A DNA stretch of 64,000 nt, taken from Hellea balneolensis DSM 19091. GTDB taxonomy: Bacteria > Pseudomonadota > Alphaproteobacteria > Caulobacterales > Maricaulaceae. A model generated the notes under the pieces. That model was not told the DNA's origin. It ran no database searches and was given only the letters and a program-made list of their open reading frames with translations. The translations under genes and the position numbers were made by a program. Each line of letters starts with the position of its first letter. Positions within the stretch are counted from its first letter, which is position 1. The stretch is taken from the NCBI RefSeq assembly GCF_000428525.1, contig NZ_KE386760.1, positions 85,832 to 149,831 of the forward strand. The letters run 5' to 3'. This document shows positions 35,824-41,162 of the stretch, piece by piece.

Positions 35824-38529
35824 TTAAGCGACCTGTGCCGCTTGAGTGTCCTCCGTATGCCGCAATAACAGGACATATTGCATGGCATCGATAAGGTCAC
35901 GGGACTTAATTGGTTTTGTCAGGAAAATATCAACGCCCGCGGCCATGCACTCCGCATTATTTTCAGCTGAAACATCTGCGGTTAAAGCGATAATGGGTGT
36001 GTTCTGATATTCCCGTCCTGAGTCTCTTATAGCCCGGGTTGTTTCAATTCCGTCCATTGTTGGCATCCGAATGTCCATCAATATGATATCAATGGCTTGC
36101 GTGTTCAAAACATCCAAGGCTTCTACGCCGTTTCCGGTACACAGCGTTTTGCAGCCTTGCGGGTCAATAAACATCCTAATGACTTCTTGGTTCGCAGGTT
36201 CATCCTCCACAATGAGGACTTTTAACCCTTTAAGCCTTTCCACTTCAGCAACCGCCGTGCGTTCTATGGGATGTGCGGTCTCATCATTCCTTTCTTCGGC
36301 AAAATAGGAGTTGCTTATAACAGTTTCAGTCTCTGGCGCAGGCTCGGTAGCTGGTAACTGCGTAATTTCTTCCTGTACTTCAGGTTCAACCGCTTCGCTT
36401 TGCGGACCGCATAATGTCAGTTTAAATTCTGATCCGCGGCCTTCCGCCGATATCATCGTTACGTCACCGCCCATCATGCGCGCAAGGCTTTGCGTGATAG
36501 CAAGACCGAGGCCAGATCCGCCATATTTACGCGTCATAGTGCTGTCGGCTTGCACGAAAGGTGTAAATAATTTGCCTTGTACCGCCTCGCTCATGCCTTG
36601 GCCTGTATCGGCGACAATGGCCGTGACCTCAGTCTCAGCATTGTCCAATTTCTTAGACGTCACGTGAAGATGAACGCGGCCACGTTCTGTAAATTTAGCA
36701 GCGTTGGATAAAAGATTGCTCAAACATTGTTCCGTGCGGACTTTATCGACTGTGATGTCACCGCTTAAGCTGCCTTCTACAAAACATGTAAAGGTAACAC
36801 CTTTAGCCTCTATGGCCGGACGCCACTCTTGCTCTAACTTTTTAACCAGAGCCTGAATATTGGTCGGCTCAGGATAAAGCTGCATTTTATCGCCATCTAT
36901 GCTCGACATATCAACGATGCTTTCTATCACATGTGTCAGCTTGTTAGAGCTGTCTAAAATTATCCCGGACTTATGACGCATGTCAGGGGTCGGGGCTTGT
37001 GTGGATAATAAATCCGCAATACCTACAATTCCGTTAAGAGGGGTGCGCAGCTCATGACTGACCATGCCCAAGAATTCAGACTTCATGCGATCTGCATCTT
37101 CAGCTTCCGCCGTCTTAATTTCGAGCTTTTTGGAGATATTGTGGCGGTAGCGCGCGAAAACTATCGCAAGACTTGCTGCCAAGGACAATATCGCAAGTAA
37201 GACAAGCAGTAGCTGATTTACGCGTTTGCTTTGCTCCGCTTTGGCACGTTGTAAATTAGCTTCGCGGGTGAGGTTCGCCTCCCTTTCGGCTTGACGTTCT
37301 TTGGTGTTTTCCAGACTCGCGACCAGTTTTGAGGTTCTGGTACTATAAGACTTTAAAAGGTTTTGGGTTGTCAGGTCGAGTAATTCATTAGTGAACTTAT
37401 AAATTTTGCTCTTGTCATTTTCCTGAATCGCAAAACTAAGTTTGGTTCGATTTATATAAGCCCGAAATATATCATTTGATTTTTCGGATTCAGGAACATT
37501 TTCCAATAAGAGTATTTTTTCTTTAGCTTCAGCAACTCTGCCTAACCCTAAAAGACTGTTGACCTCTAGGAACTGAAGGTGCTTCCTAACAGAAGGTAAC
37601 TTCGCTACCTTAAGCCCGTTATTTATATGTGTTAAAGCGACTTTATACTCACTTTGTTGGTCATAAAGGCGAGCGACCCTTAATTCTGTTAATCCAGGTG
37701 TGTTTGACCCAACCTCTTTTTCTATATCAAGAACAAACTGTGAGACCTGAGTTGAGACTTCGTGTTCTCGCCACATTGATAGAGAGTATATGAGATTATT
37801 GAGAAGGCTTGAACCGTCAATCGGGTAACCCGCGGCTTGCATTCGCGCTATAAGGTCAGCAGTGTTTTCAATTGCCAGCTCGGTATTGAGCAAAAGGTTA
37901 TTCAAATAAGTTGTGCTGGTCAGAGTCAAAATATGCGCGTCGGTCACATAAGGTGAAATTTCAGTAGGAATCTTTTTAAAGGCCTCTTGAGCTTGCTGTA
38001 AGGCTAAGGAAGGATTATTCGAAAATGAATTGACTACACTTAAGAGTAGCCAAGCATTGCTTGCAACAAACCAATCTTTATCATTTGCCGCAATTTCGAG
38101 GTCATTTATCAGGTTCTCACGGTCAATATTTGGATCCAAAAGATCAAAATTATCGAGCATGCGGCGATGAAGGTCATAAACAGCGAAATCTCTTTGGGCG
38201 CCCGCTTCTTCTAAAGTACTTTTATAGAGCGCCAGAATTTTATCGCGGTCAAAATCATTACTATGTGCAATTCTGCCATGAGCGTGTTGACGGATATGAC
38301 GAAGGCGGGTTTTGGGCGGAAGAGATGCTAGGTTTAAAGCCTCTATGGAAGCTATATTTTCAGTAAGAAGCTTTTCAGTTTTAATTTTTTCGCTAAAGGC
38401 AACGGCTTTTTCCATTGCCTCCTCTGAGATAATAGATTGCGCGTAAGTTTGGGTGGGTGTGCAGACAAGTGCTGACGCTGCTAGAAAACTAGATATAATC
38501 GTCTTGATATGTTTTCTATGTTTTTCCAA
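35824..38529 (-). CDS. Hybrid histidine kinase with TPR-like periplasmic sensor
   Basis: 901 aa. Signal peptide (ISSFLAASALVCTPTQTYAQ), about 400 residues of TPR-like helices, a coiled coil and a membrane helix at about 440-460 (LLLVLLAILSLAASLAIVFA). HisKA has MVSHELRTPLNG near residue 486; HATPase has NLLSNAAKFTE, DTGQGMS and GGSGLGLAI; the C-terminal receiver (about 770-890) has VEDEP, MDIRMP, ALTAD and TKPI. The TPR part is therefore outside the cytoplasm. It follows the double-glycine peptide gene on the same strand, 131 nt away across a terminator, so it is a candidate sensor. No cognate DNA-binding regulator is adjacent. Confidence 0.85.
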   Translation of the reverse strand: MEKHRKHIKTIISSFLAASALVCTPTQTYAQSIISEEAMEKAVAFSEKIKTEKLLTENIASIEALNLASLPPKTRLRHIRQHAHGRIAHSNDFDRDKILALYKSTLEEAGAQRDFAVYDLHRRMLDNFDLLDPNIDRENLINDLEIAANDKDWFVASNAWLLLSVVNSFSNNPSLALQQAQEAFKKIPTEISPYVTDAHILTLTSTTYLNNLLLNTELAIENTADLIARMQAAGYPIDGSSLLNNLIYSLSMWREHEVSTQVSQFVLDIEKEVGSNTPGLTELRVARLYDQQSEYKVALTHINNGLKVAKLPSVRKHLQFLEVNSLLGLGRVAEAKEKILLLENVPESEKSNDIFRAYINRTKLSFAIQENDKSKIYKFTNELLDLTTQNLLKSYSTRTSKLVASLENTKERQAEREANLTREANLQRAKAEQSKRVNQLLLVLLAILSLAASLAIVFARYRHNISKKLEIKTAEAEDADRMKSEFLGMVSHELRTPLNGIVGIADLLSTQAPTPDMRHKSGIILDSSNKLTHVIESIVDMSSIDGDKMQLYPEPTNIQALVKKLEQEWRPAIEAKGVTFTCFVEGSLSGDITVDKVRTEQCLSNLLSNAAKFTERGRVHLHVTSKKLDNAETEVTAIVADTGQGMSEAVQGKLFTPFVQADSTMTRKYGGSGLGLAITQSLARMMGGDVTMISAEGRGSEFKLTLCGPQSEAVEPEVQEEITQLPATEPAPETETVISNSYFAEERNDETAHPIERTAVAEVERLKGLKVLIVEDEPANQEVIRMFIDPQGCKTLCTGNGVEALDVLNTQAIDIILMDIRMPTMDGIETTRAIRDSGREYQNTPIIALTADVSAENNAECMAAGVDIFLTKPIKSRDLIDAMQYVLLLRHTEDTQAAQVA

Positions 38530-38604: not shown

Positions 38605-38629
38605 TAAAAAAACCCGCCTTGGGCGGGTT
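38605..38629 (-). terminator. Terminator directly after the double-glycine peptide gene
   Basis: Perfect stem AACCCGCC-CAA-GGCGGGTT (read on the minus strand) followed by a T-run, 32 nt after the peptide stop codon. It shows that the short peptide gene ends a real transcript. Confidence 0.9.
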
Positions 38630-38660
38630 CCACATAGTTGATCAAATTGGATCAGAAATC

Positions 38661-38729
38661 CTAAAAGTCAATAATGATTGGCATCCCACCAGTTACGACT
38701 TCGATTTCTTCAAGAGTTAATTCACGCAT
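38661..38729 (-). CDS. 22-aa double-glycine precursor peptide (leader + heptapeptide core)
   Basis: Too short for routine callers. Minus-strand ATG at 38729 with AAGGA 7-8 nt upstream, stop TAG at 38663-38661. The leader is MRELTLEEIEVVTGG: an amphipathic acidic helix with Leu/Ile/Val at regular spacing and Gly-Gly at -2/-1, as recognised by C39 peptidases. The predicted released core is MPIIIDF (seven residues). It is 166 nt downstream of a C39-ABC exporter on the same strand and followed by a strong terminator. The core has no Cys, Ser or Thr, so lanthionine chemistry is excluded. Mature function, signal or antimicrobial, is inference. Confidence 0.8.
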   Translation of the reverse strand: MRELTLEEIEVVTGGMPIIIDF

Positions 38730-38784
38730 TGAATTTTCCTTGTTCTGCGTTTCCGGAATTGGAAACTATCAAATAAATGCGCCA

Positions 38785-38895: not shown

Positions 38896-40950
38896 TTAAA
38901 TATGCAAAACTTGGTTTGAACGCTGAATAAAGGCAGGTCTGTGGGCTACAATTAATCTGGTAATCGGCATTTTTGCAATGATATCGACGATAATTTCCTC
39001 GGTTTTAGCATCCAGATTGGCTGTGCCTTCGTCCAAGAACAGGACGCTGGGTTCGTGATATAAAGCGCGGGCTAATAAGACGCGTTGTTTCTGACCGCCT
39101 GACAATATCGACCCCATATCCCCGACCATAGAGGTATAATGCATGGGAATAGCCATAATCTCATCATGAATTTGCGCTTTACGCGCGGCAGCGGCGACTT
39201 TTTTCATGTCCATTTCAGGATCAAAAAAGCTGATATTATCAGCGATCGTTCCAGATAATAACTTATCATCTTGCATTACAACGCCAATATGTTCACGCCA
39301 ACGGCGAATACCAATCTCTTGCAAAGGACGTCCATCTATCAAAATACGTCCCTTTGTTGGCTCATATAATCCCAATATAAGCTTCATAAGCGTCGTCTTA
39401 CCGCCGCCAGAGAGTCCTGTCAGAGTCGTCATTTGGCCGGGCTCTATCGCCAGACTATAATCGTCAAAAATCCAGCGATCTGTGTCTGAATAGCGAAATG
39501 AGATATTTTCAAGCTCAATGTGACCCTTAAACTCAGCACGTCCAGCTTCGCCGTCCTCTAGCTGTTCTTCTTCAGAGAAAATGATATCCGATAATCTGTC
39601 CAGATGAAGTGAGAGAAGCCGAAATTCGATACCCTTTTGCAAAAGCTGCGTGACGCTATCAGTAAAATATTGACGGTAAGCCAGAAACGCGACCAGCATG
39701 CCGAGCGTAAAGGCATTGCCATCCATCATCATCATGGCGGCGGCCCAAACCACGATGACGATCTGTAAGCCTGTTAAAAGCGTTTCCGCAAATTTCTGCC
39801 AGATCGTGAACTTTCCATACTCAACATTTGTATTGATGAAATCCGTATAAAGATTTCGCCAGGCCGCTTCGCGCTGAGCTTCTCGGCCAAAAAGTTTAAC
39901 TGTTGTGCTGGCGCGGATACTTTCAATCACATGGGTGTTTTCTACGGCTTTGGCATAGATGCTCTCTTCTTGCGTGCGGCGTAGATGTGGATAGATCAAA
40001 AGTGTGGAGAGGGTGAGCAATAGAACGCTTATCAGGATAATTGTCCCGAGCAGAGGTGAATAAAGATAGAGGATTATCAACATCAAAATGGCCATCACGC
40101 CGTCAATCAAAACGGCAACAATCGATTGAGTCAGCGCCTCTTGGATCGGCACAGAGCTGCCCATGCGCGAAATAATGTCCCCGACATGACGTTTTTCAAA
40201 ATAACTTGTAGGCAAGCGAATGAGGTGGCGAAAGACATTGCCGACCATCTGCAAGCTCATTTGATTGCCGTAAACTAGGATAGCCCAGCTACGCACAGCT
40301 TCACTGACCGCGCGCAAAATCATAAGACCGCCAAATCCCAGGGCGAGGGCTTTTAGCAAGCCATAATCATTTTGCGCCAGAGCGCCGTCCACAACGAGCT
40401 GTAAATAAAAAGGTGCGGCTAAAACTATGATTTGCAAAATAACAGAAAGCGTGAGCGTTTGAAATATGGCGCGCTTTAATCCGACAAGGCGTGACCAAAG
40501 CAGCGAAAGATGCGGCTTTAATCGTGCGTCTATAGGCGAAAATTCTGCTGTCGGGGTTAGCTCAAGCGCAATGCCCGTGAAGTGATCTGAGACTTGAGAG
40601 AGCTTTAAGTTTCGAAGTCCAATACCCGGATCGACAATTTGAACTTTGTCGCCTTTAACGGATTTTAGCACGACATAATGGTTTAAATCCCAATGCAAAA
40701 TGGCCGGGAGCTGGAGTTTTTCCAATTGGTCTAAATCAACTTTCAAAGGCCGCGCCGCGAGCTGAAGCCCTCCTGCGATCGCGATAATTGATTTTAGGGA
40801 TGCGCCCGTCATAGAGACAAGGTGACGTTTTCGGAGCACATTCAAATCAATATTATGCCCGTGATACTGGCCTATCATTGCAAGGCATGCCAGACCGCAC
40901 TCAGTCATTTCGGTTTGAAGAATAACGGGAAGTGTTTTGCGGCCAAACAT
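38896..40950 (-). CDS. C39-peptidase ABC exporter (double-glycine peptide transporter)
   Basis: 684 aa. N-terminal C39 domain (1-130): Gln and catalytic Cys in QTEMTECGLACLAM, His in HWDLNHYVVL, Asp in IVDPG, so the peptidase looks active. Six membrane helices at about 160-430. The ATPase domain has Walker A GLSGGGKTTL, signature LSGGQKQR, Walker B VLFLDEGT and H-loop VAHRP. It ends shortly after the H-loop and is slightly short for the family. It should cut after GG and move the core peptide out of the cytoplasm. Its ATG overlaps the stop of the 70-aa gene (TAATG), so the two are translationally coupled. Confidence 0.9.
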   Translation of the reverse strand: MFGRKTLPVILQTEMTECGLACLAMIGQYHGHNIDLNVLRKRHLVSMTGASLKSIIAIAGGLQLAARPLKVDLDQLEKLQLPAILHWDLNHYVVLKSVKGDKVQIVDPGIGLRNLKLSQVSDHFTGIALELTPTAEFSPIDARLKPHLSLLWSRLVGLKRAIFQTLTLSVILQIIVLAAPFYLQLVVDGALAQNDYGLLKALALGFGGLMILRAVSEAVRSWAILVYGNQMSLQMVGNVFRHLIRLPTSYFEKRHVGDIISRMGSSVPIQEALTQSIVAVLIDGVMAILMLIILYLYSPLLGTIILISVLLLTLSTLLIYPHLRRTQEESIYAKAVENTHVIESIRASTTVKLFGREAQREAAWRNLYTDFINTNVEYGKFTIWQKFAETLLTGLQIVIVVWAAAMMMMDGNAFTLGMLVAFLAYRQYFTDSVTQLLQKGIEFRLLSLHLDRLSDIIFSEEEQLEDGEAGRAEFKGHIELENISFRYSDTDRWIFDDYSLAIEPGQMTTLTGLSGGGKTTLMKLILGLYEPTKGRILIDGRPLQEIGIRRWREHIGVVMQDDKLLSGTIADNISFFDPEMDMKKVAAAARKAQIHDEIMAIPMHYTSMVGDMGSILSGGQKQRVLLARALYHEPSVLFLDEGTANLDAKTEEIIVDIIAKMPITRLIVAHRPAFIQRSNQVLHI

Positions 40951-41162
40951 TACTTAGGCCCTCTAGACAATATCCAGTCTAGGAGCCTGATGGAGTCTCC
41001 ATCCGTTTCGACCTTTAAGAAAAACAATCCCGCAATAAATATAATCATCACCAGAATGAGGAGAACGGTAATAATCCAGGAGGCCACACTATTTCGAAGC
41101 CGAACCTCGCCAAACAGGGCACGGGAGCGATGCTCCAAGGCTTCTTTACGAAATAAACTCAT
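40950..41162 (-). CDS. 70-aa membrane protein equal to the N-terminus of a HlyD-type adaptor
   Basis: It opens with LFRKEALEHRSRALFGEVRL, the usual cytoplasmic start of adaptors paired with C39-ABC exporters, then one membrane helix (WIITVLLILVMIIFIAGLFF), then only 20 more residues. The biotinyl-lipoyl, hairpin and beta-barrel domains of a true adaptor are absent, and no adaptor remnant follows because the ABC gene starts at once. The TAATG coupling argues that the short form is the real product rather than fresh decay; an old deletion that has been kept is also possible. Confidence 0.75.
   Translation of the reverse strand: MSLFRKEALEHRSRALFGEVRLRNSVASWIITVLLILVMIIFIAGLFFLKVETDGDSIRLLDWILSRGPK

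Follow-up and report, generated by a model that had tools for sequence, protein, structure and literature searches.

Peptide signalling of the kind considered here is known mainly from Gram-positive bacteria. In open reviews, quorum sensing by oligopeptides is described as a Gram-positive trait (PMC8895600; PMC13220807), and the pheromone systems of the ComC type, with their double-glycine (GG) leaders, are Gram-positive (PMC7595303). The streptococcal ComC/ComAB/ComDE and BlpC/BlpAB/BlpHR systems have in common with the present locus, found in a 64-kb window (the whole stretch of DNA analysed) of the marine alphaproteobacterium Hellea, a ribosomally made GG-leader precursor, a C39 peptidase-ABC (C39-ABC) exporter and a linked histidine kinase, with a mature peptide that varies behind a constant leader. 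Unlike the streptococcal systems, this one has a Gram-negative host, the cores are mostly 5–9 residues long, and some precursors carry two to four core copies; moreover, the Hellea cassette has a periplasmic TPR sensor within a hybrid kinase, an HlyD stub, and no linked response regulator. Two criteria of the ComC-AB-DE arrangement are met, namely a GG-leader precursor next to a C39-ABC exporter whose catalytic residues are intact, and a histidine kinase encoded with the peptide (38 of 38 loci). The third, a polytopic HPK10-type sensor with a linked LytTR regulator, is not, its place being taken by the TPR sensor with HisKA, HATPase_c and receiver domains. The cassette would thus work like the ComC-type GG pheromone systems, but fails their receptor definition (PMC7595303).

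The RRNPP systems (RapF-PhrF, NprR-NprX) likewise use linear peptides that are short, and their TPR superhelix is close in size to the one predicted here. Their criterion of a cytosolic receptor and an imported peptide is not met by the Hellea receptor, whose sensor follows an apparent signal sequence and precedes a membrane helix; it is predicted to be periplasmic, is fused to a kinase, and needs no peptide import. In addition, the Hellea leader is of the GG rather than the Sec type, and the fold match extends to kinases without a linked peptide. Class II microcin export (CvaA/CvaB/TolC) likewise involves a C39-ABC exporter, a GG leader and an HlyD-family N-terminus, whereas here the HlyD protein lacks its periplasmic body, the core is about ten times smaller, a kinase is linked, and there is no immunity gene. 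A core of tens of residues with an immunity gene, as expected of class II microcins, is not found, no conserved immunity ORF having been seen in the neighbourhoods; nor is the linked modification enzyme of a RiPP, as no shared neighbour enzyme was seen by eye within up to 20 kb. In Xanthomonas, the RaxX/RaxA/RaxB system provides a Gram-negative GG-leader peptide that is exported by a C39-ABC protein and acts as a signal, RaxX being larger, sulfated and recognised by a receptor of the plant, and RaxA a full HlyD-type protein.

No description of the cassette was found in open papers (subscription papers lay outside the search), nor any experimental data on this peptide-kinase system. The peptide is most likely a signal and the linked kinase its receptor, a model of the cassette in which we have reasonable confidence, in the absence of binding, export or expression data. 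If true, it would supply the periplasmic TPR histidine kinases with a concrete class of ligand. As the peptide-receptor pair is conserved in cultured alphaproteobacteria, the question is directly testable with synthetic peptides.

A 22-codon double-glycine precursor gene

The peptide gene (38661..38729, minus strand) is unannotated and comprises 22 codons and a TAG stop. It is preceded by an AAGGA ribosome-binding site (38737..38741, minus strand) 7 nt 5' of its ATG, and encodes the leader MRELTLEEIEVVTGG (15 codons; 38685..38729), ending in the GG that forms the predicted C39 cleavage site, followed by the core MPIIIDF (38664..38684), which fits the family consensus and is the predicted mature peptide ([M+H]+ 848.459 if unmodified). 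The ATG with its AAGGA, the leader, the core and the stop had been proposed by the sequence-only reading, and are borne out by the sequence. Neither the peptide nor the HlyD stub matched a known family in Pfam or NCBIfam, no Rfam element was found, and a promoter scan scored the real sequence no better than shuffled versions.

On the two strands of the whole window, this is the one short ORF with a leader of this kind. Across 137 genomes of the family, the 15-codon leader pattern occurred in 29, at one site per genome, and its reversed control gave zero matches. Compared with the nearest relative (G003), the peptide gene has four nucleotide differences, all of them synonymous. Given the single leader site per genome, the empty reversed control and the synonymous-only differences, coding and conservation lie far beyond chance, and it is virtually certain that the gene is real and under selection. 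A chance ORF was ruled out by the leader-pattern survey, the conservation of 39 precursors and the synonymous differences from G003. Since gene callers tend to skip genes of 22 codons, similar systems may be overlooked elsewhere.

The same earlier reading placed a strong terminator shortly after the stop codon, and a stem-loop, read as an intrinsic terminator, does begin about 29 nt 3' of it (38606..38631, minus strand), between the peptide and kinase genes, running into a U-tract with a folding energy of -19.5 kcal/mol (z -2.8). A terminator scanner did not call this stem-loop, in our view because the U-tract takes part in the pairing of the stem. In the 70 nt 3' of the peptide stop, z is below -1.5 at 35 of 39 loci.

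On the other side of the gene, a small stem-loop (GTTTCC..GGAAAC; 38749..38766, minus strand) rests on weak evidence. Its pairing is kept in L038 and L040 despite a different stem sequence, and the upstream regions of the peptide genes have a mean z of -1.36 (n=39). The letters of the upstream stems change and the pairing stays, as in GTTTCC/GGAAAC, GTCCT/AGGAC, GCTTC/GAAGC, CACGAG/CTCGTG and CGCGAG/CTCGCG, and a GTAAC-N6-GTTAC dyad occupies the position in other genera. An operator or an RNA-stabilising hairpin is possible.

The precursor family and its cores

Homologues of the peptide were found in 39 genomes of Robiginitomaculaceae (Maricaulales), comprising Hellea, Litorimonas, Algimonas and relatives, with Litorimonas cladophorae and Robiginitomaculum among the named ones. 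The set combines a survey of orthologous exporters with a family-wide search for the leader pattern. Loss of the leader or frame beside orthologous exporters would have refuted the original proposal; both were retained at every stub-exporter locus long enough to show them. A search of 385 sampled genomes of the class gave no leader pattern with an xP core outside the family.

The leader is near-invariant, reading MREL(T/S)..E...V.GG; M1, R2, L4, E8 and G14 are identical in all 39 precursors, and G15 in 38, with alanine in the other. The cores, by comparison, comprise 38 distinct sequences, and the core unit is 5–9 residues long in 37 precursors, the two exceptions having 11 and 31. The consensus is x-P-I-[IV]-[IV]-[DE]-F, with proline at position 2 in 32 of 39, and examples of cores are MPIIIDF, NPIVIDF, YPIIVDF, LPIVIEN, QPIVIWL, KVVVDY and SLKVEV. 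For two peptides predicted in the probable genomes of Litorimonas cladophorae KCTC 23968 (NPIVIDF) and Algimonas porphyrae LMG 26424 (VPIIVGQDF), the [M+H]+ values are 817.445 and 987.551.

Seven precursors carry two to four copies of the core: IPVIDF, LPADIEW and RSIKT (four each), FPIIIG, TPIDIEL and GPVIIET (three each) and FPIDIEV (two). Within each, the copies are identical as protein; of 45 codon columns, 30 vary synonymously and none non-synonymously, while the spacers vary. The units were selected as exact matches, and no degenerate extra copies were seen in the seven precursors. From this divergence of codons beneath identical copies, which is the strongest evidence available, it is the short core, and not the whole precursor, that is read as the selected functional product, and we are confident that it is made as a short mature peptide. 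If the core copies are the product, the spacers must be trimmed in the species with multi-copy precursors.

Two loci depart from the pattern. One precursor (L053, in G038) is atypical, with the core TKSAEKTEKQATESAIPEIDCLNRRRRACGA; its sister genome has four copies of IPVIDF, and IPEID may be a remaining core copy. At the other (L225, in G116), the peptide gene 5' of the kinase start reads MRGPIIIL and a stop, which looks like an in-frame deletion of the leader that spared the core; the terminator downstream and the kinase are still present, and no related C39 exporter was found in that genome at E<1e-100.

The linked histidine kinase and its sensor

The proposed receptor is a hybrid histidine kinase of 901 aa (35824..38529, minus strand), in which Pfam searches and alignment give the order signal sequence, periplasmic TPR-like sensor, membrane helix, HisKA, HATPase_c and receiver. 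A histidine kinase gene lies 3' of the peptide gene at all 38 loci where the contig continues, in most cases a hybrid with a periplasmic TPR sensor, and begins 55–189 nt after the peptide stop, behind the terminator; with a terminator between them, the two genes probably do not form one transcript. The kinase domains were confirmed by Pfam at L191 and L192, while L193 gave TPR matches only, its kinase part being hidden by masked sequence. This linkage is specific: the TPR sensor-kinase family adjoins every stub-type exporter with enough downstream sequence, and not one of the roughly 70 exporters whose HlyD is full-length.

In four genomes (G010, G106, G108 and G109) the peptide and kinase genes are paired without an adjacent exporter, and in G010, a single contig, 1.3 Mb separate the pair from the one related C39 exporter. 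The genes flanking the cassette differ between lineages. From the linkage, the pairs that persist without an exporter and the differing flanks, peptide and kinase are the most tightly retained pair. The sequence-only reading, which mentioned neither the kinase nor the HlyD stub, had left the choice between a peptide signal and a micro-RiPP open; its signal half is supported by the adjoining receptor-like kinase, the peptide-kinase pairs without an adjacent exporter, and the identical cores that have diverged synonymously.

As read from the alignment, the predicted periplasmic sensor (403 aa; 37231..38439, minus strand) is flanked by an apparent signal sequence on one side and a membrane helix on the other. 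AlphaFold2 models it as an all-helical superhelix (mean pLDDT 86.2, pTM 0.81), and it matches TPR repeats in Pfam and in profile searches against PDB sequences, including HOP TPR2A (E 6e-5). Known members of the TPR-type superhelix bind short extended peptides (PMC3601957, PMC7524759). Foldseek matched the model to Rap proteins, several of them complexed with Phr-type peptides of 5–7 residues, at a TM of about 0.5. As a control, related TPR kinases from another family, which have no peptide gene, were modelled; these match Rap at least as well, and the Rap similarity was consequently withdrawn as specific support. An invariant Asn215, aligned to HOP Asn264, was also set aside as a clue to the ligand, being a TPR feature that peptide-free kinases share. 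Since fold and Asn motif both occur in peptide-free kinases, neither indicates a peptide ligand by itself, and the modelled fold is compatible with peptide binding without proving it.

Core and sensor distances showed no co-divergence in Mantel and partial Mantel tests once exporter distance was removed (partial r -0.03, p 0.58, n=23), a weak test with 23 short cores and sensors near saturation, 72% different on average. That the core is the ligand of the linked kinase is an inference as regards binding, and one that we regard as likely.

No relatives of the sensor were found outside the family at E 1e-20 in the 385 sampled genomes of the class. Weaker TPR sensor-kinase relatives (L227–L241) occur, for the most part, in two further families of the order, beside other genes, with no recognisable GG peptide upstream; in one genus the kinase is downstream of a probable aroA.

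The exporter and the route of the peptide

The C39 peptidase-ABC exporter (684 aa; 38896..40950, minus strand) has the Pfam domains Peptidase_C39, ABC_membrane and ABC_tran, and in most genomes lies just 5' of the peptide gene together with an HlyD stub. Its catalytic residues, which had been described as complete, are indeed so: C18, H91 and D107 are invariant in 18 exporter orthologues. The stub (70 aa; 40950..41162, minus strand), whose gene overlaps the exporter start by 1 nt, has an N-terminus (LFRKEAL..GEV) and one membrane helix resembling those of full-length HlyD, and a C-terminal LLDWIL tail. The tails LLDWIL and IWRWLW resemble the full-length HlyD end EWLFDPL by eye. The periplasmic body is missing, and a domain search found no HlyD domain (barrel-sandwich/HlyD_3 body) in the stub, whereas the full-length homologue has it. 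All 33 distinct stubs retain the same two ends, and the stub-type exporters form one clade (support 100/99). The simplest reading of these sequences is a one-time in-frame internal loss in HlyD, followed by retention, by which the exporter seems to have dropped the HlyD portion extending in the direction of the outer membrane. As the linked HlyD keeps both ends without the periplasmic body that bridges to TolC, release of the peptide into the periplasm is inferred; whether this is the main route is evenly balanced.

The alternative that survives best is that a full-length HlyD encoded at another site lets the signal pass via TolC into the medium, the kinase sensing a conventional quorum signal and the stub being a remnant or an exporter subunit. 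Such export in trans cannot be excluded, since a full-length HlyD is encoded beside a second C39 exporter in the Hellea genome itself (C1:1072209), and in the four genomes with an isolated peptide-kinase pair the one related exporter that was found comes with a full HlyD. We consider this doubtful, as the same two ends are present in 33 of 33 stubs, whose exporters form a single clade, so that the short form looks selected rather than decaying.

Less plausible still is the view that the C39-ABC protein exports a tiny bacteriocin or RiPP, and that the kinase only regulates production or senses envelope damage. The peptide leader is of the class II microcin type, and longer, microcin-like GG peptides adjoin some exporters with full-length HlyD, one of them in the same family; however, the neighbourhoods hold no conserved immunity gene or modification enzyme, the cores are mostly 5–9 residues, almost all without Cys and freely variable at position 1, the part of HlyD leading from the periplasm to the outside is absent, and precursor and kinase are paired even where no exporter adjoins. 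Of the two possibilities raised originally, the micro-RiPP is thus not upheld, as no modification enzyme is conserved (by eye) in neighbourhoods of up to 20 kb. A cis-acting leader ORF, attenuating the kinase without any function of the peptide in trans, is suggested only by the succession of short ORF, terminator and kinase gene, and can hardly be reconciled with conservation at the protein level, a textbook GG leader, multi-copy cores identical as protein with differing codons, surrounding RNA that is not conserved in sequence, and a C39 exporter at almost all such loci, known C39 substrates bearing this leader.

In the peptide-signal model that we favour, the cassette consists of the HlyD stub, the C39-ABC exporter, the heptapeptide precursor, the terminator and the TPR-sensor hybrid kinase; cleavage, release site, binding and output are inferred steps, set upon the observed gene, its conservation, selection on the core, linkage, domain content and predicted fold. 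The C39 domain would recognise the MREL...GG leader and cleave after GG, and the exporter would carry the core, a short linear peptide, through the inner membrane and, with an even chance as the main route, release it into the periplasm. The periplasmic peptide may leak out and return from neighbouring cells, or act on the cell that produced it. Its binding, in extended form, in the TPR groove of the kinase would then change phosphoryl flow via the receiver domain to an unidentified partner. None of the genes beside the window kinase is a response regulator, inspection of the large neighbouring ORFs by eye, without a domain search, showed no shared regulator gene, and neither a partner regulator nor a target gene was identified. 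We lean only slightly towards the broader proposal that a Gram-negative family signals or times itself with ribosomally encoded linear peptides of about 5–9 residues, released into the periplasm by a C39 exporter without a bridge and read by a TPR hybrid kinase, with multi-copy precursors possible and a signal that differs by species; if true, it would represent a Gram-negative class of peptide pheromone and give the periplasmic TPR kinases a type of ligand.

The second C39 exporter of the Hellea genome (G000, C1:1072209-1078064; L002, L247) is 46% identical to the first; a full-length HlyD is encoded close by, and two GG-leader ORFs (124 and 165 aa) lie upstream. It probably forms a system of its own, for export of the microcin type or of proteins. 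In three genomes (L044, L045 and L046), very large convergent proteins of about 1,700 aa and a second, smaller, secreted-looking gene are encoded directly 3' of the kinase; these are possibly regulated surface proteins.
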